A DNA stretch of 49,435 nt from Deltaproteobacteria bacterium. GTDB lineage: Bacteria; Myxococcota_A; JAADFL01. The stretch is from contig JAADFL010000161.1 of the NCBI GenBank assembly GCA_013152945.1, positions 1 through 49,435 on the forward strand, in the 5' to 3' direction. Under the pieces are notes generated by a model. It was not told the origin of the DNA and ran no database searches. It was given only the letters and a program-made list of their open reading frames with translations. Positions 34,336 to 48,277 of the stretch are shown in pieces; position 1 is the first letter of the stretch; every line of letters starts with the position of its first letter. Position numbers and translations under genes: made by a program.

Positions 34336-35442
34336 ATGAGTTTCGCTGAAAGTATATTGCCGGGCAAACCCGCTATACATGAATGGCGATATATGTTTTG
34401 TGCTGTTCATGTGCCAAAAAAGTTCATTAATCTGTCCTCCATGGCGGTTATGATTGTACTTTTTCTGCCCAATACTGTATCAGCAGGCACCCATAAGGGT
34501 ACCCGGGAAAAAATAGTGGTCATGGACTTGCGGTCGGAGCGCGGCCTGGACCAGGGGCTTACCAAGCTCCTGAACGAACTCATTCTCACAGAATTCCAGA
34601 AGACAGGTAGATACGAGGTGTTCGGCGAGCGTGACATTGTCTCCATGATGAACTTCGAGGATACGAAGATAAAGATGACAGGATGCAGTGACGATAGCTG
34701 CCTGGCGGAGATCGGCGGCGCCTTGGGTGTGGATATCATAGTGGCATCGAATATCGGCAAGATAGGAGACAATTACCTGCTGAACATGAAGATGCTGGAT
34801 GTCAAGAGAGCACGGGTGCGAAAGAGGGTGAGTGAAATAGTCAAGGCAGAGGAAAATGCCCTGATACATGCCATTCGAAAGGCAGTGGCCGGGCTTACAG
34901 GCGAATCATCGGCGGATTTGCAAAAAGAAGAGGGAAGAGAAAACAAGCAAGGAAACGAGCAGGATAAAAAGAAGGCTGTTGCTGTCAACGGGAATTCGGA
35001 AAGCAATGATTCCGGGAAAGCAAAGGCAACGGCCGGCAACAACGTTGTTGAAAGCAATGTCCCGAAACCAGGCTCGACACCTGAAAAAAACAACCATGGT
35101 AGAGGAATAAACCTTCCTGCATGGATCCTGCTTGGCGTCGGCTTGGCTGCAGGTGCGACAGGTGGAGTGCTCGGAGGGTTGGCATTTGCAGACAAGGATC
35201 TTTCGGGTCGATCTTTTGATTCACAGTCAGCGTACAATGACGCAGTTGACAGCGTCAACCACAAGGCCCTTGCAGCAGACGTTATGTTCGGAATCGGGGG
35301 GGCCGCACTGGCAGGTTCTGCGGTTTTCTTTCTTTTCCTGAACGGCAATGACGGCGATAATGCAAAAAAATCCACATCCGTATCAGCCGCAGTAGCTCCG
35401 CTTGAAGGAGGATGTGTAGTGATGGGCCGGGCCGGTTTTTAA
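34336..35442 (+). CDS. CsgG/FlgO-like N-terminal domain protein with C-terminal membrane helices
   Basis: Encodes 368 residues from ATG 34336, preceded by GGGAGG (34326-34331); an upstream ATG at 34249 lacks support. A hydrophobic segment at about 35-50 (MAVMIVLFLPNTVSAG) may be a late signal peptide. The next 120 residues resemble the CsgG/LpoB-type nucleotide-independent fold: KIVVMDLRSERGLDQGL, FQKTGRYEVFGERDIVSMM, CSDDSCLAEIGGALGVDIIVASNIGKIG. A Lys/Asn/Gly-rich linker and two hydrophobic helices (PAWILLGVGLAAGATGGVLGGLAF and FGIGGAALAGSAVFFLFL) follow. This layout is common in Myxococcota envelope proteins. Role unknown. Its stop shares TTAA with the convergent next gene. Confidence 0.75.
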   Translation: MSFAESILPGKPAIHEWRYMFCAVHVPKKFINLSSMAVMIVLFLPNTVSAGTHKGTREKIVVMDLRSERGLDQGLTKLLNELILTEFQKTGRYEVFGERDIVSMMNFEDTKIKMTGCSDDSCLAEIGGALGVDIIVASNIGKIGDNYLLNMKMLDVKRARVRKRVSEIVKAEENALIHAIRKAVAGLTGESSADLQKEEGRENKQGNEQDKKKAVAVNGNSESNDSGKAKATAGNNVVESNVPKPGSTPEKNNHGRGINLPAWILLGVGLAAGATGGVLGGLAFADKDLSGRSFDSQSAYNDAVDSVNHKALAADVMFGIGGAALAGSAVFFLFLNGNDGDNAKKSTSVSAAVAPLEGGCVVMGRAGF

Positions 35443-37544
35443 TCAGGCTGTGGACTGTCCTGCCATACACGGCCGTCTTCCACAAACTGTGAATCATCGG
35501 GACTCGCCGCGTTCCAGTCCACGTATCCCACTTCCCAAAACGTATCTTTCCGCAAGAGTTGCCTGGTCACGGATGCCTTTTCACTGCCATTCAGGAACAC
35601 TCTGACAGTGGCATAGGTGAATGGCGGGTATTTTGCGTAGTCATCGAAGTAATGGACTACCACCCTGTATGGTTTGTGGTTGGCGGGATCAGGCAACCTG
35701 ATGGTTTCCGGCCCCCATCCGTCGTCGTCATCCCTGTCCAGGCTCGGATGACCGTCACCTCCCCAGTTAGGGCTTTTCTCGTAGAACCAGCAGTCATCGC
35801 TACCCTTCCTGTACGAACCACCGGGTCTTATCATGTGAAGATCGACATCCGTATCCGGATTGTCCCAGGTGAGTTCGACCATTACCTTGACTTCCGGTTT
35901 GGCCTTTATGTTCACCTCTGCAACGTTCTTGCTGGATAATCCCTCGTTGTCGGTTACCACCAACCTGACCTTGTAGTCTCCTGCCAGGTCCAACCACAAC
36001 CTGGGTGTACCTGTCGTTGGATTCTGCAACGTCGTATGGCTGTTGGGGGGTGTGCCTGCTATTGTCCAGGAGTAAGCAGCAATACTTCCGTCCGGGTCAT
36101 AACTCGCTGTTCCATCAAGGGCCACGGTATCAAGGGGCTTGGCTTGTTGGTCAGGCCCTGCATCTGCAATAGGCGGCTTGTTCTCATAGTTTCCACTGCC
36201 GTTCATGGGCACGTCGAGCACTGATTCATCCAAGTCATCACTCTCTATGACCAGGGTGCCGTTGTCCACGTCACTCTCCAATGCAGGGGTATAGGCTACT
36301 TCAACGTGCAGGGGTTGACCGTTTTCATTTTCGCTCTTTATGTCGATGGGCAAAGCCAGATTGGATGTCATCCGGAAGTGGCTTGACGAGCCTGGATCAA
36401 GGTAGACCTTGCTGATTGTCAAGGTCCTTGTGCCGACATTCTTGATATCAAGACCCATTTTTGTATCCTGGCCGGGCCTGCACCCGCCGAAGTTGAGGTT
36501 GTCGGGTTCCACCTCGATCTCGGGATTGCCCTTGTACCGGCTGATGAGCTTAACCTTGGCATCGGGAATTTCAGGGTCGTCGCTATGGACTATTGCCGTA
36601 GCCTGGTCAGGCTTGTCGTCCAGTGCCTTGAGCTGGATCACGTATTGGTACGCCGATGATTGGGGCTTGAGTACCTTGCCGTTAGGCTGGGGAGTAATAG
36701 GCGAAAATTCCATCAAGGGATCATCCTCGATGGTTATCTCGCTGATAGTAAGGTCATCAGTCCCGATATTCCTTATGTACATGGTTTGCCTGCGCTCCGC
36801 TCCCTTGATTACACTGCCGAAGTCCATGATCGCCGGAGTTATGTAGATATTCTTACCCGTAATATCCGCAGGCCCTGTGTCAGTGTCAGTGTCAGTGTCG
36901 GTATCTGTATCAGTGTCGGTGTCTGTGTCAGTGTCGGTATCTGTATCAGTATCTGTATCAATATCCGTGTCGGTGTCGGTATCCGTATCCGTATCCGTGT
37001 CGGTGTCGGTATCCGTATCTGCGTCACCGCACTGGTCCTTGATACACCAACCATATCCCTTGTCGGGCAAGGGGACACATACATAGCACCTGGGGCAATC
37101 CTTGCCGGTTGTACATTTATCTCCCTGCACCACCTTGCAATGTTTGAACAGGCATCTCATGTCTTCCCTGGGACAATCCTGGTCCTGGTCACAGCCTGGA
37201 AGGGAAAAACATGTTCCGTTCTTGCAATACTGGCTGGCATTGCAATCCGTGTCCTTTTCGCAGGAACTGCGCGTGCAGGATCCGGCAACACATGTCATGT
37301 CCCCCCTAGGGCAGTCATCATCGTAAGTGCAGGCAGGCAGCAGCTTGCAAGAACCTGAATCACAGTAGTCGGAACCGGAGCAGTCAAAGTCGTCGTGACA
37401 TCCGGCTGTATTGTCCGAGCCGGCACAAGAAAACAGGGCGGGCAGGAAGAGCAATGCGGCGCCGGCTGCAATCATCGCTATCATCGTATTCCTGCCGGCC
37501 TGGGCTTTTTCCTTCGAACTTTTCAAAATGCTTGAAAATCTCAT
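35439..37544 (-). CDS. Secreted lipoprotein: Cys repeats, Asp-Thr tract, ASH domains, PKD and YfaP-like domain
   Basis: Encodes 701 residues. GGAGGG precedes ATG 37544. A signal peptide ends at LFSCAGS, a lipobox candidate. Residues about 48-170 hold Cys modules of the CxxDxDC/CxxGSC kind. The Asp-Thr tract spans about 173-223. Two ASH/choice-of-anchor-D domains follow (NIYITPAIMDFGSV, EVEPDNLNFGGCRPG), then a PKD domain (PPIADAGPDQQAKPLDTVALDG, YDPDGSIAAYSWTIAG). The C-terminus is a YfaP/DUF2135-like domain (VELTWDNPDTDVDLHMIRPGG, PYRVVVHYFDDY). It has the same building blocks as the 14446-17475 protein in another order. Probably a surface adhesin or scaffold. Confidence 0.85.
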   Translation of the reverse strand: MRFSSILKSSKEKAQAGRNTMIAMIAAGAALLFLPALFSCAGSDNTAGCHDDFDCSGSDYCDSGSCKLLPACTYDDDCPRGDMTCVAGSCTRSSCEKDTDCNASQYCKNGTCFSLPGCDQDQDCPREDMRCLFKHCKVVQGDKCTTGKDCPRCYVCVPLPDKGYGWCIKDQCGDADTDTDTDTDTDTDTDTDTDIDTDTDTDTDTDTDTDTDTDTDTDTDTDTGPADITGKNIYITPAIMDFGSVIKGAERRQTMYIRNIGTDDLTISEITIEDDPLMEFSPITPQPNGKVLKPQSSAYQYVIQLKALDDKPDQATAIVHSDDPEIPDAKVKLISRYKGNPEIEVEPDNLNFGGCRPGQDTKMGLDIKNVGTRTLTISKVYLDPGSSSHFRMTSNLALPIDIKSENENGQPLHVEVAYTPALESDVDNGTLVIESDDLDESVLDVPMNGSGNYENKPPIADAGPDQQAKPLDTVALDGTASYDPDGSIAAYSWTIAGTPPNSHTTLQNPTTGTPRLWLDLAGDYKVRLVVTDNEGLSSKNVAEVNIKAKPEVKVMVELTWDNPDTDVDLHMIRPGGSYRKGSDDCWFYEKSPNWGGDGHPSLDRDDDDGWGPETIRLPDPANHKPYRVVVHYFDDYAKYPPFTYATVRVFLNGSEKASVTRQLLRKDTFWEVGYVDWNAASPDDSQFVEDGRVWQDSPQPD
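36876..37026 (-). repeat. Asp-Thr codon tract (mixed GACACT/GATACA/GATACG)
   Basis: Hexamer array, about 150 bases, coding the (Asp-Thr)n linker with one Ile. Codon mixture differs from the other tracts. Confidence 0.9.
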
Positions 37545-38031: not shown

Positions 38032-38895
38032 CTACCGGTTCTTCCAGGCCTGCCACAGGTCTTTAATGGCTTTTTTCGTGGAATCCTGCGCTGCATCGAA
38101 AGGCACCTTGCCTTTGCACAGGCCCTTCGGAATGTCCGGGTCAAATGGTATCCTGCCAATGACTTCCTTCCCCTTTTCCAGGCAGTGCTTTTCTATCATG
38201 TCTGTAACGTCCGGCGCGGTGTCGTACCTGTTTATCGCCACATAAACCTTTACCTTGAAGTGATCGGCGAGATCCAACAGCCGGTCCAGGTCATGAAGAC
38301 CGGAACTCGATGGTTCGGCCACAGCCAACATACGGTCTGCGCCTGTTACAGATGCGTGAACAGGGCATCCGATGCCCGGTGGGCCGTCTACGAGCAATAC
38401 CTCTGCATCGATGTCATCCGCCTTTTTTTTGGCTGTTTCAATGACTTCTGCAACCAATTTGCCCGAGTTGTCTTCGGCCACACCGAGTTCGGCATGCACG
38501 AGCATGCCGAACTCGGTCTCGCTTTCCATTATTTGACCGGCCCTGTTTTCCCTCAATGTAATTGCCTGTGTCGGGCAAACAAGGACGCATGCATTGCAAC
38601 CCTCGCAAGCCAGCCCGTCGATTGAGAATGCCGGGTCATGCTCTTCGATTGCATCGTACCTGCAGACTTCCAGGCAGGCGCCGCAGGCAGTACAGGTGTC
38701 ACTGTCGATAACTGCGGTCTCCCCGGAATAAAAGTCCTTGTCATTGATCCTTTTTGCTCCAAGGGCGATCGCGAGGTTGGCTGCATCGACATCTGCATCC
38801 GCAAGGACGGCATTGCCCGCCAACCGCGCAAAGGACGCAACCAAGCTGGTCTTGCCGGTTCCGCCTTTCCCACTAAGTACAACCCACTGATTCAA
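38032..38895 (-). CDS. MinD/Mrp-type ATPase with two 4Fe-4S clusters (ORP-type, second copy)
   Basis: Encodes 287 residues. A deviant Walker A, LSGKGGTGKTSL, opens the protein. A ferredoxin-like insert has two CxxCxxCxxxC clusters (CTACGACLEVC and CEGCNACVLVC). The switch region VLLVDGPPGIGCP follows. This architecture is the ATPase of the 'orange protein' complex (DVU2103/DVU2104 type in Desulfovibrio vulgaris), probably in metal-cofactor or Fe-S assembly. The start is TTG 38895, overlapping the TGA of the preceding ATPase gene (TTGA). The coding sequence contains a perfect 36-base hairpin at 38482-38517. Confidence 0.9.
   Translation of the reverse strand: MNQWVVLSGKGGTGKTSLVASFARLAGNAVLADADVDAANLAIALGAKRINDKDFYSGETAVIDSDTCTACGACLEVCRYDAIEEHDPAFSIDGLACEGCNACVLVCPTQAITLRENRAGQIMESETEFGMLVHAELGVAEDNSGKLVAEVIETAKKKADDIDAEVLLVDGPPGIGCPVHASVTGADRMLAVAEPSSSGLHDLDRLLDLADHFKVKVYVAINRYDTAPDVTDMIEKHCLEKGKEVIGRIPFDPDIPKGLCKGKVPFDAAQDSTKKAIKDLWQAWKNR
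38482..38517. repeat. Perfect 16-bp inverted repeat with 4-base loop inside the ATPase gene
   Basis: Arms ACCGAGTTCGGCATGC (38482-38497) and GCATGCCGAACTCGGT (38502-38517), loop ACGA. It codes TEFGMLVHAELGV on the minus strand. Confidence 0.9.
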
Positions 38896-39764
38896 GGTTC
38901 ACTCCCTGCCTTTGCCCTGTCCATGATCGCGTTGACAACCTTGGACATGTTACGGCCTGTTTCGGTATTTTCAGTAACAATTACCCTTCCTTGTGCACCG
39001 GCCGCGGCCAGTTCGGGGTCGTAAGGGATTTCTGCCAGGATGTCCAACCCCTCTTTGGAACAGTAATCCTGAATACGATCATCTCCGAGATCCGATCTGT
39101 TGATAACCACGCCGGTATCAATTGATAGTTTCTTGGCAAGGCCATGGACCACCTTTAGATCATGGAGCCCGAATGGTGTAGGCTCGGTGACCAAGAGCAG
39201 GAAATCACTGTGCTTGATCGCCTCCATTGTCGGACAAGTGGCTCCTGGCGGGGCGTCGGCTATTATTACCGTTTCTTCCGGTTCTGTATTTTTTTCTTCT
39301 TTCCAAAGTTCCGTTATAAGAGGCGTGGCCCTTGCCTCGCCGATGTTCAACATGGCATCCATGAATGACAGCCCGTCAGAATGGCCCCGGCGCAATAAAC
39401 CGATAGGTCTCGAAATTTCCTCAAGGGCATCCTTGGGGCATGCAATAAGGCAGGCTCCACAGGAATGACACAGCTCATCGAATACCATTACGGAATCATC
39501 GAGCGATAAAATCGACTTGAACCGGCAGGCCTTCTGGCACTCCCCGCAACCATCGCACTTACCCTTGATGCTCCTGGGAACAAGAACCGTAACATCGCGT
39601 TCCTGCTCTATTGCAGGTGACAGGTACAAATGGCCATTGGGCTCTTCCACGTCGCAATCGACGTAGATACAAGGCTTGCCGGATTTTGCCAGGTTGAAAG
39701 CGGTATTTACGGCCAGGGTGGTTTTGCCCACCCCGCCCTTGCCGCTGGCGAATGCGATTCTCAT
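38892..39764 (-). CDS. MinD/Mrp-type ATPase with two 4Fe-4S clusters (ORP-type, first copy)
   Basis: Encodes 290 residues, paralogous to its downstream neighbour. Deviant Walker A ASGKGGVGKTTL; ferredoxin-like insert with CDGCGECQKAC and CHSCGACLIAC; switch VIIADAPPGATCP. ATG 39764 overlaps the TGA of the NifX-like gene (ATGA), so three genes at 38032-40117 form one coupled unit. The two ATPases probably form a heterodimer acting on a metal cluster carried by the NifX-like proteins, by analogy with the Desulfovibrio ORP complex. Confidence 0.9.
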   Translation of the reverse strand: MRIAFASGKGGVGKTTLAVNTAFNLAKSGKPCIYVDCDVEEPNGHLYLSPAIEQERDVTVLVPRSIKGKCDGCGECQKACRFKSILSLDDSVMVFDELCHSCGACLIACPKDALEEISRPIGLLRRGHSDGLSFMDAMLNIGEARATPLITELWKEEKNTEPEETVIIADAPPGATCPTMEAIKHSDFLLLVTEPTPFGLHDLKVVHGLAKKLSIDTGVVINRSDLGDDRIQDYCSKEGLDILAEIPYDPELAAAGAQGRVIVTENTETGRNMSKVVNAIMDRAKAGSEP

Positions 39765-40117
39765 CTGTATTCCCTCATTGTCTGCTCCTCGATTTCGCCT
39801 TTCTCCAGCATATCCAGGATGTCTTCCACACTCTTGCCGTCAGGCGCATTGTACATGGTTATTTTCTCGGCCTTCAAACCGCTGGCGGCCTTCGGCCCGA
39901 ATCTGCCGGATATCACGGCATCCGCGCCCAGCTCGGCAACTTTCGCCGCCGCGCCGACACCTGCGCCGTGGGCAGCATTTTTCTCTTGATTGGGTACGAC
40001 TTCGATTACTTCCTTCTTGTCCGAATCCACGACCATGAATGCCTCGCACCTGCCGAACCTTGAATCGAGCTTTGCGGTAAGATCGTTTCCACCTTGAATA
40101 GTAATTACGATTTTCAA
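39761..40117 (-). CDS. NifX/NifB-C-terminal-like cofactor carrier (ORP-like)
   Basis: Encodes 118 residues of the dinitrogenase iron-molybdenum cofactor biosynthesis fold. Landmarks are SRFGRCEAFMVVD, the central loop AAHGAGVGAAAKVAELGADAV and SGRFGPKA. Stand-alone members bind metal-sulfide clusters; ORP binds a Mo-Cu-S cluster. The start is TTG 40117 with AGGAGG upstream. It is first of the unit with the two Fe-S ATPases. Confidence 0.88.
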   Translation of the reverse strand: MKIVITIQGGNDLTAKLDSRFGRCEAFMVVDSDKKEVIEVVPNQEKNAAHGAGVGAAAKVAELGADAVISGRFGPKAASGLKAEKITMYNAPDGKSVEDILDMLEKGEIEEQTMREYR

Positions 40118-40252: not shown

Positions 40253-41578
40253 TCAGTGTAACTCGTGACCGCCGTGGCCGTGCTCGTGATCGTGGTCGCA
40301 AGGCACTACGCCGGTGAGTTCACCGCTCAAGTACGCCTCCAGGACCTTGCCTGCTATGCCTGCGGCCCCGGTTGCTGCGTCAATTCCAAATGACTCGAAC
40401 AATTGTATTGCCCTCGGTCCCATGCCCCCTGCCAATATGGCGTCCACGCCCAAGTTTTTTATGAACTCGGGTACTACTCCGGGTTCATGGCCGTTGTAGT
40501 ATGGGTTTTCCGCTACTTCATGCCCCACGACTTCGCCATTCTCTACGGATGCAACCGTGTAATAGGGACACCTGCCGAAATGTGCGCTAACCTCGGCATC
40601 AAGCCCCCTGGAATCAGCGCATGCAATTGCCACCTTCATGTTTATCTTCTCCTTCTCTTTGGCTTTGTCGCTGTTTTGAGTTTCCATGGTGCCTTCTTTG
40701 TCTTCATGCCTGCTGGAGTCTTTGGCGGATGTACCGGATGTTTCGAGACCAAGATTGATTTTTTTGCCGACTGTTATCGCCAGTTCCTTGAGCGCCGATG
40801 CAGCCGGGTCATCGGGATGTGAACGCACCAGGGGCCTTCCCTGGTCGCCTGCCGCTGCTCCGTTCATTGAGATGGGGATCTTTCCCAGGAAAGGCACATC
40901 CATTTCTTTGGCCATAGCCTCTGAACCTCCGGGACCGAACAGCAAAATTTCCTTTCCACAATGGGGGCACGTCAATCCGCTGAAGTTCTCGACCACGCCG
41001 AGTATGGACAAATTGACCTGGCGGGCAAATGTTATGCTGCGTTTACCATCCATGAGGGCCACGGCTTGGGGACCGGTTACAACCACTGTGCCATCGGCAT
41101 CAGGTATAAGTTGCACCAGAGACAGGGGCTCATCACCTGTGCCGGGCGGTAAATCCACTACCAGCACATCCAGGTCACCGAACTCGCTGTCACCCAGGAA
41201 CTGTTCTATAACGGTATTCTTGATCGGGCCACGCCAAATGACTGCCGAGTCTTCCCTGGGCAAAAGGCCTGCAAGTGATACGACCTGTATGCCTGATGCC
41301 GGAGCAGGCCTTATCTTTTCGTCTACAACCGCCATGGATCCATCTGCAGCGCCGGCCATCAGAGCTGCATTCGGGCCATGCAAGTCGATATCCAGCAGAC
41401 CCACTTGTTTGCCCATATCAGCAAAGGCGACAGCCAGGTTTACTGCCACGGTTGTCTTGCCTACTCCTCCCTTGCCGCTCATCACCAGTATCTTGTGCTT
41501 GATCCTGGACAGGTTCTCCTTGATTCGTTCTTTACGCTGGTTCCTTGGATCTACGAATTTTTCATCTTTCTTATTCAA
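40253..41578 (-). CDS. mrp: Mrp/NBP35 ATPase fused to a C-terminal NifX-like domain with His-rich tail
   Basis: Encodes 441 residues. The P-loop ATPase (about 28-270) has Walker A MSGKGGVGKTTVA, LDIDLHGPN and VVDLPPGTGDE. The Mrp CxxC is present as CPHCG, used to bridge an Fe-S cluster. After a Ser/Glu/Lys-rich linker comes a complete NifX-like domain (about 312-420: MKVAIACADSRGLDAEVSAHFGRC). The tail is HDHEHGHGGHELH, a likely metal chelator. Mrp proteins are Fe-S carriers; the fusion suggests that cluster delivery and cofactor holding are combined. The start is TTG 41578 with AAGGAG. Confidence 0.9.
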   Translation of the reverse strand: MNKKDEKFVDPRNQRKERIKENLSRIKHKILVMSGKGGVGKTTVAVNLAVAFADMGKQVGLLDIDLHGPNAALMAGAADGSMAVVDEKIRPAPASGIQVVSLAGLLPREDSAVIWRGPIKNTVIEQFLGDSEFGDLDVLVVDLPPGTGDEPLSLVQLIPDADGTVVVTGPQAVALMDGKRSITFARQVNLSILGVVENFSGLTCPHCGKEILLFGPGGSEAMAKEMDVPFLGKIPISMNGAAAGDQGRPLVRSHPDDPAASALKELAITVGKKINLGLETSGTSAKDSSRHEDKEGTMETQNSDKAKEKEKINMKVAIACADSRGLDAEVSAHFGRCPYYTVASVENGEVVGHEVAENPYYNGHEPGVVPEFIKNLGVDAILAGGMGPRAIQLFESFGIDAATGAAGIAGKVLEAYLSGELTGVVPCDHDHEHGHGGHELH

Positions 41579-42152: not shown

Positions 42153-42211
42153 AAAAAGCGGCCTGCCGGAAGCAGGTCGAGAGGGGGCGTTAACCCGCTC
42201 CCGAAGGCCGC
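42153..42211 (-). terminator. Candidate terminator/attenuator before the DUF5320 gene
   Basis: On the minus strand GCGGCC (42211-42206) pairs with GGCCGC (42163-42158), followed by TTTTT. A small hairpin CTGC-TTCCG-GCAG is nested within. It lies between two genes of the cluster. Confidence 0.45.
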
Positions 42212-42241: not shown

Positions 42242-42703
42242 TCACTTTCTACCTCTTCTTCTGTTTCCATTACGCCCGAATTCTCTTCCTCTCCGTCGCC
42301 TGCGCATCGGACCCAAGCACGTACCCGTGAAATATCCGATTCCTGCGCCATGCCACTGCCCCCTGCAGGGATTGGCCAGGAAGTCTTCTATCACCTGCCT
42401 GGCCTCCCCGGTAAGGCCCTGCACAACCTCTATTCCCATTGCCTGAAGCAAATATGATGCCTGCCTGTTGATACCGCAACACAAGACTATGTCCACTGCC
42501 TGGTTTTTGAGCCATTTTGTTAGGTCCAGGAAGGACATCCCATAATCGATTTCTATGATTTTCTCCGTATTTTCAGTATGATATTTTAATTGTACATTGC
42601 TTGTATCTTTTTTTTCTGCATCAATGGAGAAAAATAATATCTCCCTGGCAAAACATAGTCTTGGCGCGATTCTGTTCTCGAACAGGGGGACTGCTATTTT
42701 CAA
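42242..42703 (-). CDS. NifX-like protein with Arg-rich tail
   Basis: Encodes 153 residues. The N-terminal 110 residues follow the NifX-like fold: MKIAVPLFENRIAPRLCFAREILFFSID and the loop VDIVLCCGINRQASYLLQAMGIEVVQGLTG, with a Cys-Cys in the cluster-loop position. The last 30 residues are Gly/Arg-rich (MRRRRRGREFGRNG). The start is probably TTG 42703, with a weak AGGT upstream. An inverted repeat sits 18-35 bases upstream. A possible scaffold or sensor for the cofactor made by the cluster. Confidence 0.8.
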   Translation of the reverse strand: MKIAVPLFENRIAPRLCFAREILFFSIDAEKKDTSNVQLKYHTENTEKIIEIDYGMSFLDLTKWLKNQAVDIVLCCGINRQASYLLQAMGIEVVQGLTGEARQVIEDFLANPCRGQWHGAGIGYFTGTCLGPMRRRRRGREFGRNGNRRRGRK

Positions 42704-42720
42704 GAGTATTACCTATTCTC

Positions 42721-42738
42721 TGTTTCAGTAACGAAACA
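42721..42738 (-). promoter_or_regulatory. Inverted repeat TGTTTC-N6-GAAACA, operator-like
   Basis: Perfect 6-bp arms, with a third GAAACA half at 42755-42760. It lies within the leader of the NifX-like gene, too close to the start for a classical sigma-54 enhancer. Confidence 0.35.
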
Positions 42739-42823
42739 ATTAAATATGCAACATGAAACATCTAATGATTCAACATTGCAACACATAATCATACCAGATT
42801 TAATATGCCAAGGTGAAATGTGT

Positions 42824-43804
42824 CTAGACAACATCTTCATCACCTGCCCATTCATCAGGGTCTCTCTCTGTTTGGTATTTTTCCCAGTATGGGTCATGTC
42901 TATAAGCCTCTCGAAGTAATACGTGGCGTCCATCTTTCAGTCTGAGCCCAATGCTGTGATGAGGCTTTTTCTCATCCACTACTCCGGGCCCGAACAATGG
43001 GTGGTTTACCCTGTCTCCGAGCTGAAATACCTTGGAGGGTTCGTACTTCATCAGGTCGAGTTTTTTCTCGATTGACTGGAGATAAATAAAGGGGACCAGT
43101 ATTATTCGCTTATCATAATATGCCTTTCTCAGTTTTTCCGCATCAATGTCCAAGTCCCTTGCGACTTCACGGAACATCTCAGCCTTGTTTGTATATCCCC
43201 CGATCTGAAAAAGCTCATCCATTTTTGTCTTGTAAGACAGCCTGGGAATCACATCCTTGCCGTTATCGCTTCTCTTGAATGTTAGCACTTTTTCGTTCGA
43301 ACATTCATTCATCAATGATTTCAAACAATCCAGAACGGATTGAGGAGCACTGGCAAGGTTGCCCCGGTAGTACCTCAAGAGAGTAGTATTGTGTATCCCT
43401 GTCCTTTCAGAAATGACCCTGTAAAGCAATTGTCTTTCGGTAAGGCCCATGGCACCCATGAGCTTGTCCATGAGGGCCTTGACTTTCTTTGCCGGCACTC
43501 TGTTCCGTCTTGAGGAGCGACTGTTGCCGCCACTATTCGAGGATGGGTCAAAGTTGTGGTGGCGTTTAATGACCCTGGCCCTGAAGTGCAATAGATTGTC
43601 GAGTGTTTTCGATGGTATGGTATGCAATTCGCCCTTGTGATAACGCAGAAGGGTTACCGGGTGCACTCCGATTTTGCTTGCAATAAGTTTGTATATCCTG
43701 GACGTTGACATGGACCGAGACACGTTGATTATGTCATCGATTGCCTTTGAAGCGATATCAGCCTCGACCCTTTCTTCTTTTTTCAAGGCATATAATTTTG
43801 CCAT
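42824..43804 (-). CDS. Putative DNA-binding protein with three HTH-like repeats and CarD-like C-terminus
   Basis: Encodes 326 residues. GGGAGAG precedes ATG 43804. Two clearly related segments of about 38 residues occur near residues 36-73 (IYKLIASKIGVHPVTLLRYHKGEL...) and 131-168 (LYRVISERTGIHNTTLLRYYRGNL...). A weaker third lies near 208-245 (MFREVARDLDIDAEKLRKAYYDKR...). Each has the shape of a helix-turn-helix plus a following helix. The last 55 residues contain FQLGDRVNHPLFGPGVVDEKK, the signature start of a CarD/TRCF-like Tudor fold. A Ser/Asn/Arg-rich linker separates repeats 1 and 2. It lies 53 bases behind the sigma-54 activator gene, so both may be regulators of the ORP-like cluster. 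I know of no characterised homologue. Confidence 0.75.
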   Translation of the reverse strand: MAKLYALKKEERVEADIASKAIDDIINVSRSMSTSRIYKLIASKIGVHPVTLLRYHKGELHTIPSKTLDNLLHFRARVIKRHHNFDPSSNSGGNSRSSRRNRVPAKKVKALMDKLMGAMGLTERQLLYRVISERTGIHNTTLLRYYRGNLASAPQSVLDCLKSLMNECSNEKVLTFKRSDNGKDVIPRLSYKTKMDELFQIGGYTNKAEMFREVARDLDIDAEKLRKAYYDKRIILVPFIYLQSIEKKLDLMKYEPSKVFQLGDRVNHPLFGPGVVDEKKPHHSIGLRLKDGRHVLLREAYRHDPYWEKYQTERDPDEWAGDEDVV

Positions 43805-43857
43805 TGCTCTCCCGGCTCCAGGGAGACTAACAGCAAGTTACATGCCAGTTTGCTTGT

Positions 43858-45228
43858 TCAGATATCCAGTTTTTTCATCTTGCGCCAAAGGGTGGTGCGA
43901 CTGATGCCCAGTAACCGGGCGGCCTTTTCCTTGTTGCCACCGGTTGTGGCCAATGCATTCATTATGGCCCGGGTTTCCGCCATGGCCTGTGCATCGACTA
44001 TAGCCTTTGCTTCACCGGTTGAGGAGGGCCTGTGTACCGTGTCGTGGCTGTTTTCCGGCTCTTCCACCTGGTCCAGGAAATCGGGCGGGAGATGATTGAT
44101 AGCTATTTTTTCTTCTTCGCACATCACGAAAGCATGTTCCAGGACATTTTCCAGTTCCCTGACGTTGCCTGGAAAATCATGGTAGAGAAACAGTTCCATC
44201 ACATCCGGTTGCACACCTTTGATCGTTTTGCCTGTTCTAAGTGAAATTCGTTTGATGAGATGGTCCACGAGTACGGGGATGTCTTCCTTTCTTTGTTTTA
44301 ATGGCGGTATTTCGACAAATAAAACACGAAGTCTGAAGTACAGGTCTTCCCTGAATTTGCCTGTCAACACTTCCTGCTTCAAGTTTTTGTTTGTGGCGGC
44401 CAGGACTCTTACGTTCAGCTTGACCGTCTTGACGCTTCCGAGAGGCTGTATCTCTTTTTCCTGTAAGACTCTGAGTAGCTTTACCTGTAACTGGAGAGGC
44501 AGTTCACCTATCTCATCAAGTAAAATGGTTCCTCCCTGCGCCAGGGCGAAACGGCCCGGCTTTTCCGTCTTGGCGTCGGTAAATGCGCCCTTGGCATGGC
44601 CGAAGAGCTCTGATTCGAGTAATTCTCCCGGAAGTGCGCCACAATTAACTCGCTCGTAGGGGCCCCTCTGCCTTGGACCCAGGTCATGTAAGGCCTTAGC
44701 CACAAGTTCCTTGCCTGTCCCGCTGGGGCCTTGGATCAGCACGGTTGCATCGGATGCAGCCATGATCGGCAGCAGCCTGAACAGTTCCTGCATGGCCTTG
44801 CTTTTGCCCACCATGTCCTGGAGCCTGAATCTTTGCTGTGCCTCCCTTCTCAATGTCTCGATGGCGGACAGGTCCCTGAATATCTCGACTCCACCAAGCA
44901 TGGCTCCTGATTTGGAACGAAGAATTGCAGTGCTCACACTTATCGGCACTTCCTCGTTGGCCCTGTTCAGGATTTCCACCCGGATTTCCTTTAGAGGTTC
45001 GCCTGTTTCGATGGTATGCCGTAACGCACAGTTCCTGGTACAGATGTTAGCGCGAAAAATCTCGTAGCAATACCTTCCCTTGGCTTCTCTTGCATCAAAG
45101 CCTGTTATGTCCCGGGCCGCCTTGTTAAGATAAATTATCTTGAAATCCTTGTTTACTGCGAATACTCCCTCACCGATCGAGTCGAGGATCATCGGGAAGA
45201 GCCGCTTTGCAATATCGAATTCAGACAA
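43858..45228 (-). CDS. PAS-domain sigma-54-dependent activator
   Basis: Encodes 456 residues. An N-terminal PAS domain (about 8-115) includes a Cys-rich patch, CYEIFRANICTRNC, which could sense redox or bind an Fe-S cluster. The AAA+ domain has Walker A GPSGTGKE at about 167-174, ESELFGHAKGAFTDA (the GAFTGA loop with Asp instead of Gly, a known variant), GGTILLDEIGELP and the Arg-finger FREDLYFRLRV. A Fis-type HTH ends the protein (NKEKAARLLGISRTTLWRKMKKL). I prefer TTG 45228, preceded by GAGGTG; ATG 45192 is the alternative. The frame runs on to 45579 but that part is unlike any PAS protein. In Desulfovibrio the ORP operons are controlled by such an activator, which fits this position. Confidence 0.9.
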   Translation of the reverse strand: MSEFDIAKRLFPMILDSIGEGVFAVNKDFKIIYLNKAARDITGFDAREAKGRYCYEIFRANICTRNCALRHTIETGEPLKEIRVEILNRANEEVPISVSTAILRSKSGAMLGGVEIFRDLSAIETLRREAQQRFRLQDMVGKSKAMQELFRLLPIMAASDATVLIQGPSGTGKELVAKALHDLGPRQRGPYERVNCGALPGELLESELFGHAKGAFTDAKTEKPGRFALAQGGTILLDEIGELPLQLQVKLLRVLQEKEIQPLGSVKTVKLNVRVLAATNKNLKQEVLTGKFREDLYFRLRVLFVEIPPLKQRKEDIPVLVDHLIKRISLRTGKTIKGVQPDVMELFLYHDFPGNVRELENVLEHAFVMCEEEKIAINHLPPDFLDQVEEPENSHDTVHRPSSTGEAKAIVDAQAMAETRAIMNALATTGGNKEKAARLLGISRTTLWRKMKKLDI

Positions 45229-45422
45229 GTTGCACCTCGAGTCGAAAACCCAACAGTACCGTGCCGGTAGATAGAAGTTATTACATGGATAGTAACCAGG
45301 CAACCGCAAAGATCTGATGTGTGGTAGCAGAATTAAAATGTTCTTGAAATACCTCTTATTGAAACCATTATTGAAATTTACCATATTTTCAGGCAGAACA
45401 GCTCTCTGCAAGGATTTGCAGC

Positions 45423-45598: not shown

Positions 45599-45660
45599 GC
45601 AATAGTCGGGTGGCCCCGGGAGGTTTCCCTCCCGGGGCTCCCACAGAACCGGACGTGCCC
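45599..45660 (-). mobile_element. Solo group II intron 3' end
   Basis: On the minus strand GGGCACGTCCGGTTCTGTGG resembles the 3' strand of intron domain V. It is followed by a domain VI-like hairpin (GAGCCCCGGGAGG / CCTCCCGGGGCC) and CCCGACTAT. The same 62-63 bases recur at 47570-47632. No other part of an intron is recognisable here. Confidence 0.6.
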
Positions 45661-45713: not shown

Positions 45714-47246
45714 TTATAGAACCTCCGGCGTAGCAGTCCCATAGAAAGATTGGACTACCTGCTCCATCTGGGTGACTTCCCCATCGGATAAGAAGTTGAA
45801 ATGACTGGTTCGTTTTCTTTTTGAAAGTCGGCCGTTGTTCTGGAGACAAAATCTGATGAATAGGTCAATCTGCCGATCGGGCATATCCACGATTTCTTGG
45901 AGGGCCTTCTTGGTTCGATCGTAGTTGGCCAGGAAAGTGAGCTCCTCGGTAAGTTCTGTGTCGATAGTCTGCTTAATGAAATGGAAGAGAACCTCTGCTT
46001 GAGGCGTCATGTCGATATACCTGTACCAAAGAGCTGTTTCGTTGTGAACGGTCATGCGGCCGTCTTCGTCGAGCGTGTATTCCACCAACGACATAAGAGG
46101 GCGAGAGAAGGCTTCCAGGGAAGCATCATAGTCGGTAAGGCTTTTCAGCATGGCTGCTGATACGGGGAACATGATTCCTTTGGGAATAAAACCACGACGA
46201 GCAAGGATATTGTGGACCAGGAACCGGTGGATTCGACCGTTACCATCCTCGAACGGATGTAAGAAAACGAATCCGTATGCTACAACCGCGGCGTGGATAA
46301 CGACAGACACTTCGCCTTCGCTCATGCGTTCGTGTGCGGCGATCAGGCCTTCCATTAGATCAGTTAGATCTTCGGGTTTAGGACAGACGAAGTGTATCTT
46401 CTCTTTTTGCCAGGCTACTGTTTCGCCGACGTAATTTTGGCTTGTTCGGTGGTCGGAGACGCGAAAGCGTGAGTCGACGATTCGGTTCTGCAGATCGATC
46501 AACCGTGTTTTCTCACAGAAATCCTCGGTTTCCGCCAGACGAAGCAGCGACACGAAACGCTCAGTTCTTGTCGAGCTTGGCTTGATGTGTTCGATCTCAA
46601 AAGATGATTTCGTCTCTTTGGTATAGAGGTAAGTTATAGCCCGTTTCAATAGGTCCAGGGGGTAACTGGAGACGACTTTCCCACAGCGCTCGGGAAGGTT
46701 GGCTCGTTCAAAATCTCTAAGGGTATCGGTTCGTCGCACTATCGGACAAAACCGGCTGTCTCCCAACAAGTTGTTGTTGATGCGTTGGCGGCGAACTCGA
46801 CGGGGTTTGGCTATGGTGTAGTATCGTTCGGGATCGAGCAGGTCGACATAATTGCCCTGGTCCAAGTCTTTGAGTGGAAGAGTCCTGCCTGTAAGAAACT
46901 CATACAAAAACCACAGCCGGCGAGCGTACTTCCCAGTAGGTCTGGTCCGAATATAATCGAGGAGTTCTTTCTCTTCAATATTCTGAAAAAGAGCAGCGAG
47001 TATGCCGAGATTGGTGCCGTCGTACTTGAGTGCGAACTCAAGATGGCCCCCTAATTTATCCCCGGGCCAGTACCTGAAAGGATATACTTCTTCGACTAAG
47101 TCTTCTCTTGATGTAGCCCGGTGCATTCCCCCTGTTGCCACCCAAGAAGTATGCCAATTCGGGATGACGTTGAGCTCATATCGCTCAATGAGCGCTGCGT
47201 AGCCTGCTTTTCTCAGTACGCTTTGATTTTGGCCATTGCCAGCCAT
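45714..47246 (-). CDS. Fic-domain protein (AMP-transferase type)
   Basis: Encodes 510 residues; GAGGG lies eight bases before ATG 47246. The Fic core motif is complete, HPFEDGNGR at residues 330-338 with catalytic H330. An N-terminal inhibitory-helix-like segment SSFEIEH (about residue 216) fits the [S/T]xxxE pattern of class II Fic proteins, so self-inhibition is likely. The C-terminus is helical with a final winged-helix-like part. Such enzymes usually AMPylate target proteins. No Fic antitoxin is adjacent. The gene is flanked by copies of a group II intron 3' end and was probably brought in by rearrangement. Confidence 0.88.
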   Translation of the reverse strand: MAGNGQNQSVLRKAGYAALIERYELNVIPNWHTSWVATGGMHRATSREDLVEEVYPFRYWPGDKLGGHLEFALKYDGTNLGILAALFQNIEEKELLDYIRTRPTGKYARRLWFLYEFLTGRTLPLKDLDQGNYVDLLDPERYYTIAKPRRVRRQRINNNLLGDSRFCPIVRRTDTLRDFERANLPERCGKVVSSYPLDLLKRAITYLYTKETKSSFEIEHIKPSSTRTERFVSLLRLAETEDFCEKTRLIDLQNRIVDSRFRVSDHRTSQNYVGETVAWQKEKIHFVCPKPEDLTDLMEGLIAAHERMSEGEVSVVIHAAVVAYGFVFLHPFEDGNGRIHRFLVHNILARRGFIPKGIMFPVSAAMLKSLTDYDASLEAFSRPLMSLVEYTLDEDGRMTVHNETALWYRYIDMTPQAEVLFHFIKQTIDTELTEELTFLANYDRTKKALQEIVDMPDRQIDLFIRFCLQNNGRLSKRKRTSHFNFLSDGEVTQMEQVVQSFYGTATPEVL

Positions 47247-47569: not shown

Positions 47570-48277
47570 GCAATAGTCGGGTGGCCCCGGGAGGTTTACC
47601 TCCCGGGGCCACCCACAGAACCGGACGTGCCCAAGCTGAAGAACCTTGTCCTCGAAAGCAGGAACCCCGATGGGACGGGTTCGCTTCCCGTCGCCCTTCG
47701 GAATATGCACTCGACGAACCGGATGCGCACGGTAGCGCCCGGACTTGAAGCGCTCCAGCAGATCCTGGAGGTTCGCCTCCAGGTCCGCTGCATATTGCGC
47801 TGCCGTCCGGCCATCAACTCCCACCGCGCCGTCCTCCCGTGTGCGGCGATAGGCCTCTCCAAGCCATTACTGGTCAATATGATGAGCTAAGGTCGTCCAC
47901 ACCATCTGCGGCGCCTCGTGCGACCGCTTCGCTACCTGCTGGAGTTTCGTTGACACGCTTCTCGGGCCCGATGTCCCGGACATCTTTCCCTCCAACAGCT
48001 CCATAGCCCGACTCCTCTCTTCCCTCCACGGGGTCCGACGGGTCACGTTCCCCCGCTTCAACGGTACTATCGAGGAGCTCCGACTTCTCGCCGACCATCC
48101 CCCGTCACTTCGTTGCCTTCGCTCTGGGGTACCATCGTGGCGCTCGCTTTTCGTCTCTCCCGCGGTTGCGAACACCAGCTTCCGCGGGCCTGGCCTTGGT
48201 CACCGGGTTGCCAGCCGGTCTGCTCGACACTACCTCATGTGGCTTCCCCCTTTCCCAAGCTTTGCTTGGCGCACACC
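47570..48277 (-). mobile_element. Deleted group II intron relic
   Basis: On the minus strand it begins near GTGTGCGCC (48277), a 5' GUGYG-type end, and runs through structured leader sequence into a reverse-transcriptase reading frame. After the codons for FEDKVLQ it jumps directly to the domain V/VI-like 3' end (47632-47570). Most of the maturase gene and the 5' strand of domain V are therefore missing. Confidence 0.65.
47636..47983 (-). pseudogene. Group II intron reverse transcriptase/maturase, N-terminal remnant
   Basis: Reads MSGTSGPRSVSTKLQQVAK ... LAHHIDQ, then a TAA (47869-47867) where the family normally has a sense codon (Glu by memory). It continues in the same frame as [19 protein letters not shown] ... 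[33 protein letters not shown]. These are the RT0-RT1 motifs. The protein breaks off before the YADD region, so it cannot be active. Confidence 0.85.

Follow-up and report, generated by a model that had tools for sequence, protein, structure and literature searches.

The gene at 42824–43804 on the minus strand of the window (the whole stretch of 49,435 nucleotides analysed here) encodes a 326-aa protein that is probably composed of three repeated HTH units followed by a UvrD-type Tudor arm, and it probably represents an unstudied gene regulator. The preferred reading is that of a sigma-54-induced DNA-binding regulator with an RNA polymerase (RNAP)-docking arm, to which a probability of about 0.4 was given; this value refers to the general reading, not to all of its steps at once. 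The open reading frame extends from an ATG at 43804 to a stop at 42824; the coordinates given in the initial annotation were exact, and so is the strand. A full-length paralogue in the same genome (G000:C35:5043-6020) shares 39% identity over 303 residues, every part of the protein included, which indicates that the reading frame corresponds to a real, maintained protein. The identity was higher in the HTH cores (50, 50, and 42%) than in the whole repeats (36, 45, and 35%). The pI was 9.6 for the whole protein and about 10 for repeats 1 and 2; the C-terminal tail is acidic. A helicase core was absent according to Pfam, and there was no catalytic domain. The AlphaFold prediction for the full-length protein, made without relatives, had a pLDDT of 44.8 and was too poor for use. 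As far as the collections searched show, the domain architecture is new and is composed of two known module types; in this sense, the suggestion of a "new kind of transcription factor" can be called plausible.

The repeats are about 65 residues long, two of them strong (R1 and R2) and the third (R3) weaker. R1 (43574–43771, minus strand; aa 12–77) has its HTH core at about aa 34–60, R2 (43304–43501, minus strand; aa 102–167) contains the best HTH, and R3 (43055–43252, minus strand; aa 185–250) is a diverged, HTH-like copy; all three are supported by repeat statistics and profile matches within the own genome. The R1–R2 alignment scored 96, while shuffled sequences averaged 23.5 (sd 4.5) and none of 1000 shuffles was as good, and R2–R3 scored 44 (0/1000); the direct R1–R3 alignment was not significant (411/1000 shuffles). 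The same pattern was obtained for the paralogue (R1–R2, 0/1000; R2–R3, 1/1000 shuffles). The three repeats noticed initially are thus real by shuffle tests, the third being the weaker, but the limits then proposed (residues 36–73 and 131–168) span the HTH core only. The TGxHxxTLLRYxxGxL-type motif described for both strong repeats holds as a common core, GVHPVTLLRYHKGEL in R1 and GIHNTTLLRYYRGNL in R2, except that "TG" occurs in R2 only.

An HTH-like nature of the repeats was supported by both sequence and structure searches. R2 matched HTH_26 (PF13443, Cro/C1-type HTH) with 23.7 bits against a gathering score of 22 (E 5.8e-5) and was the only repeat to pass; no Pfam HTH model matched R1 or R3, and the repeat searched in isolation scored below the cut-off. 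The AlphaFold model of the repeat unit, for which the three window repeats aligned to one another served as the only input rows, had a pLDDT of 86.7 and a pTM of 0.73. It comprises helices 8–22, 24–38, 42–50, and 58–73 and strands 5–7 and 55–57, with a turn between helices 24–38 and 42–50, and the conserved GxHxxTLLRY segment sits at the position of the recognition helix. Searches of the PDB and of viral models yielded mostly XRE/Cro/C1 (lambda-repressor type) HTHs as its structural neighbours. Since the similarity scores were moderate (best Foldseek E 0.27; VIA-align Z no higher than 7.0, a level typical of common arrangements), an XRE/lambda-repressor-like HTH fold is supported for the repeats, not proven. 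Designed PPR proteins, which also appeared as PDB relatives of the repeat profile, were discarded because their high scores had accumulated from numerous sub-significant matches to repeats that are identical.

The C-terminal module (42887–43048, minus strand; aa 253–306, GDRVNHPLFGPGVV...GRHVLLREAY) is, on profile evidence, Tudor-like and of the UvrD/PcrA type, not of the CarD/TRCF type. The module profile, built from 16 sequences (the 326-aa protein, its paralogue, and relatives from the phylum), matched UvrD/PcrA Tudor structures in the PDB with E values from 4e-6 to 4e-4, whereas 2lqk, which we take to be a transcriptional regulator of CarD type, was reached with an E of only 0.84. In hhalign comparisons, the module of the protein and paralogue gave 96% with the UvrD Tudors of the phylum versus 20% with CarD/Mfd (CarD/TRCF) domains, both sets having been excised by motif, which introduces a mild bias. 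No Pfam match to PF21196 (UvrD/PcrA Tudor) or to PF02559 (CarD/CdnL/TRCF RID) was found in the 326-aa protein or its paralogue. The CarD/TRCF-like end reported in the initial annotation was consequently correct in fold class, as assigned by homology, but not in family. The own genome also encodes a CarD-like protein, Mfd, and UvrD. The nearest relatives of the module (hhalign, 99%) were small zinc-ribbon proteins, which are common in the phylum. One of them in the own genome (L022, G000:C90:25294-25440) carries the same Tudor module directly upstream of a gene for a sigma-54 response regulator (L024), so that two Tudor-module genes of this genome, this one and that of the 326-aa protein, adjoin sigma-54 activators; among the phylum loci, spanning 1.5 kb on each side, no general association of this kind was detected. 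Two further proteins of the own genome carry the module (L027 and L028, on G000:C36 and G000:C120): one is again a zinc-ribbon protein, the other a large P-loop ATPase in which the module lies near the N-terminus.

The repair helicase UvrD holds RNA polymerase via a docking unit of this Tudor type. In PcrA, mutation of H681, W684, K712, and L714 severely lowers RNAP binding (PMC5397179). According to residue mapping by hand, H681, W684, and L714 correspond to H268, F271, and L296 of the 326-aa protein; the four positions read H, F, H, and L, that is, two identical, one conservative, and K712 lost (H294; E in the paralogue). A K/R at the K712 position is also missing from 2/10 UvrDs of the phylum. 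The Tudor docking motif [VIL]-D-x-x-T-G-E-[VIL]-[VILT] (helicase interaction motif, TGE) has been published (PMC8318588), and the own RpoB (L082) contains two exact matches to it, VDPKTGEII and VDLNTGEVI, which were placed in the SI1 region by eye from their position. No match was present in the own UvrB, and the TGE motif was absent from all proteins of the window. On these findings, RNA polymerase is a plausible, though unproven, partner for the Tudor module. The docking of RNA polymerase by this arm is rated as possible, at somewhat under even odds, and the docking idea of the initial annotation may survive by a UvrD-type route instead of the CarD one.

Immediately upstream of the gene, on the same strand and separated by 53 bp, lies the adjoining sigma-54 activator that had been recognised from the start. 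Its ORF (43858–45300, minus strand; the start codon is uncertain and the upper limit approximate) encodes an enhancer-binding protein with PAS, AAA+ (GAFTDA), and Fis HTH domains identified with Pfam. On the 3' side, the gene is followed by a cluster of the anaerobic Orange-Protein (ORP/MrpORP) type, with no repair genes among the neighbours. In downstream order, the cluster comprises an Orange-Protein-like Nitro_FeMo-Co (Di-Nase fold) protein (42242–42703; PF02579, E 4.4e-7), a DUF5320 protein, an MrpORP-like Fe-S carrier ATPase (40253–41578; NF041136, E 2e-117, below the curated cut-off), a second, small Orp-like Di-Nase protein (39761–40117), and two MinD-like ATPases with ferredoxin insertions (Orp3/Orp4-like; 38032–39764, with limits of 38892–39764 and 38032–38895); the features with coordinates are all on the minus strand. 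A terminator-like hairpin with a T-run at 42159–42179, after the first Di-Nase gene, suggests that the remaining ORP genes may form a separate transcript. In Desulfovibrio vulgaris, sigma-54 drives the orp operons together with DVU2106, an activator that also has GAFTDA (PMC3897727, PMC4641369). At the locus of the paralogue, no sigma-54 promoter and no ORP genes were present, and the link with ORP genes is therefore not a property of the family.

Several other features were noted in the window. A Fic-domain gene (45714–47246) is bracketed by two palindromes, at 45615–45636 and 47586–47607, that are nearly identical (CCCGGGAGGTTTnCCTCCCGGG), have flanks in common, and were found nowhere else in the genome; an ORF resembling a fragment of a group II intron reverse transcriptase, with no Pfam match, adjoins the second copy. 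A lipoprotein-like ORF at 35439–37544 has a long Thr-Asp dipeptide repeat between its Cys-rich and C-terminal domains. No Rfam families or tRNAs were found in the window.

The 53-bp gap upstream of the gene contains a sigma-54 (-24/-12) promoter-like site, TGGCATGTAACTTGCT (43832–43847, minus strand), with one mismatch to TGGCACRNNNNTTGCW and located about 28 nt 5' of the ATG; the expected transcription start is about 17 nt before the ATG. With both strands counted, the window holds four matches this good (0.04 per kb per strand), and as about 0.002 would be expected in the gap on the right strand, a chance site is unlikely. Control of the gene by sigma-54 is thus predicted with fair confidence. 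A short inverted repeat, TCTCCC-n7-GGGAGA (43808–43826), lies over the expected start site and the Shine-Dalgarno; a hairpin sequestering the latter was rejected, as the RNA fold was no better than those of shuffles. Comparison of promoter regions for a motif of the activator revealed no common motif and no shared palindrome. The interval that separates the gene from the ORP genes contains a weak sigma-70-like promoter and, shortly after it, a tandem pair of 22-nt repeats, GAAACA-n10-CAACAT, at 42733–42776. The GAAACA-n-CAACAT pattern had 12 matches genome-wide versus 3 for a reversed control, and the tandem pair was found at this place only, which is no more than suggestive of a candidate operator.

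From these elements, the following mechanism can be proposed. The neighbouring GAFTDA activator, situated beside ORP genes like DVU2106, would drive the gene of the 326-aa protein from the -24/-12 promoter at 43847–43832. The HTHs would read an operator that is long or repeated, for which the 22-bp tandem repeat at 42733–42776 upstream of the ORP genes is a possible candidate; DNA binding as such is likely. The Tudor end would serve for docking, its most likely target being the TGE hairpins of the RNA polymerase beta subunit, and the protein would thereby modulate transcription of the ORP iron-sulfur cluster. The ORP cluster is a tentative target, with chances a little short of even. In its most specific form, the proposal would define a new class of transcription cofactors, with tandem XRE-type HTHs on a repeated operator and a UvrD-type Tudor arm on beta TGE hairpins, activated by sigma-54 and constituting a second tier over anaerobic Fe-S (ORP) genes; this complete version is considered fairly unlikely.

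The most serious competitor, given about one chance in three, is a DNA-binding regulator, either a repressor or an architectural protein, with a Tudor module that binds a partner other than RNAP, such as another TGE-hairpin protein, DNA, or a partner in common with the zinc-ribbon/Tudor proteins of the phylum; the HTHs would then regulate, and the Tudor arm would oligomerise or recruit a co-regulator. The loss of the K712 equivalent, the acidic C-terminal tail, and the wide occurrence of the module on small zinc-ribbon proteins of the phylum, which points to a general-purpose role, are consistent with it. On the other hand, the domains of known structure that are most closely related to the module bind RNAP or UvrB, and the docking motifs are present in the own RpoB but not in UvrB. 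The lack of the motif in UvrB, together with the sigma-54 activator and Fe-S/ORP genes in place of repair genes as neighbours and the absence of a catalytic domain, also speaks against a role in DNA repair or chromosome maintenance, in which the protein would use the recruitment route of UvrD and would not be a transcription factor; with the UvrD type of the Tudor module in its favour, this reading is improbable.

Doubts about the N-terminal part lead to a different possibility, namely that the helical repeats bind RNA or protein, not DNA, and that the XRE-like fold is a scaffold only. Such a role would agree with the failure of R1 and R3 to match any Pfam HTH model alone and with structural matches that are merely moderate, but R2 exceeds the HTH_26 cut-off, the pI is basic, and the HTH cores are better conserved than the remainder, so it was considered slightly less improbable than a repair function and still rather unlikely. 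Membership in the CarD/CdnL/TRCF family is already disfavoured and very improbable: the Tudor-like fold class is held in common and a zinc-ribbon relative is weakly similar to PF02559 (E 0.18), yet PF02559 itself is not matched, the UvrD Tudor is clearly the better match, and the genome has separate CarD-like and Mfd proteins. The sigma-54-induced regulator with an RNAP-docking arm is hence retained as the preferred reading.

If docking is true, the contact between a UvrD-type Tudor and a TGE hairpin would be an RNAP docking code used by DNA-binding regulators too, beyond the recruitment of helicases; the many uncharacterised zinc-ribbon/Tudor proteins of the phylum may be transcription accessories too, and regulation of the ORP cluster by sigma-54 would involve a second regulator. 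The HTH-repeat/Tudor protein has so far been found in this genome only, where it has two copies. The HTH-repeat profile and the full-length protein had no matches in 376 other sampled genomes of the phylum, and homologue searches of genome contigs, viral contigs, plasmids, and phages found nothing. The nearest sampled genomes are related to this one at the level of the phylum only; little can therefore be concluded from the missing matches, and orthologues are to be expected in the unsampled class of the organism.

Compared with known systems, the repeats resemble XRE/Cro-C1 HTHs (PF13443, HTH_26) in helix arrangement and, for R2, in a sequence match; they differ in the presence of three tandem copies per chain, in their diverged sequences, and in the short two-strand pairing (residues 5–7 and 55–57) of the repeat model. 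With the C-terminal Tudor of PcrA/UvrD (PF21196; PDB 5dma, 7egs, and 6yi2), the module shares the GxRVxHPxFGxGxV motif, the C-terminal position, and the H, aromatic, and L residues of the RNAP-binding face, whereas the 326-aa protein is without a helicase and has H (E in the paralogue) as the equivalent of K712. The zinc-ribbon/Tudor proteins of the phylum have an N-terminal zinc ribbon where the 326-aa protein has HTH repeats. CarD/CdnL/TRCF RID domains (PF02559) share the Tudor-like fold class and, as a possible common target, RNAP beta, but they belong to a different sequence family, with YPxHGVG in place of the HPxFGxG of the module. The locus as a whole is similar to the DVU2106-controlled orp operons of Desulfovibrio vulgaris in having a sigma-54 activator with the GAFTDA motif adjoining ORP/MrpORP genes, and is distinguished from them by the additional HTH-repeat/Tudor gene, with its own sigma-54 promoter-like site, between the activator and the ORP genes.
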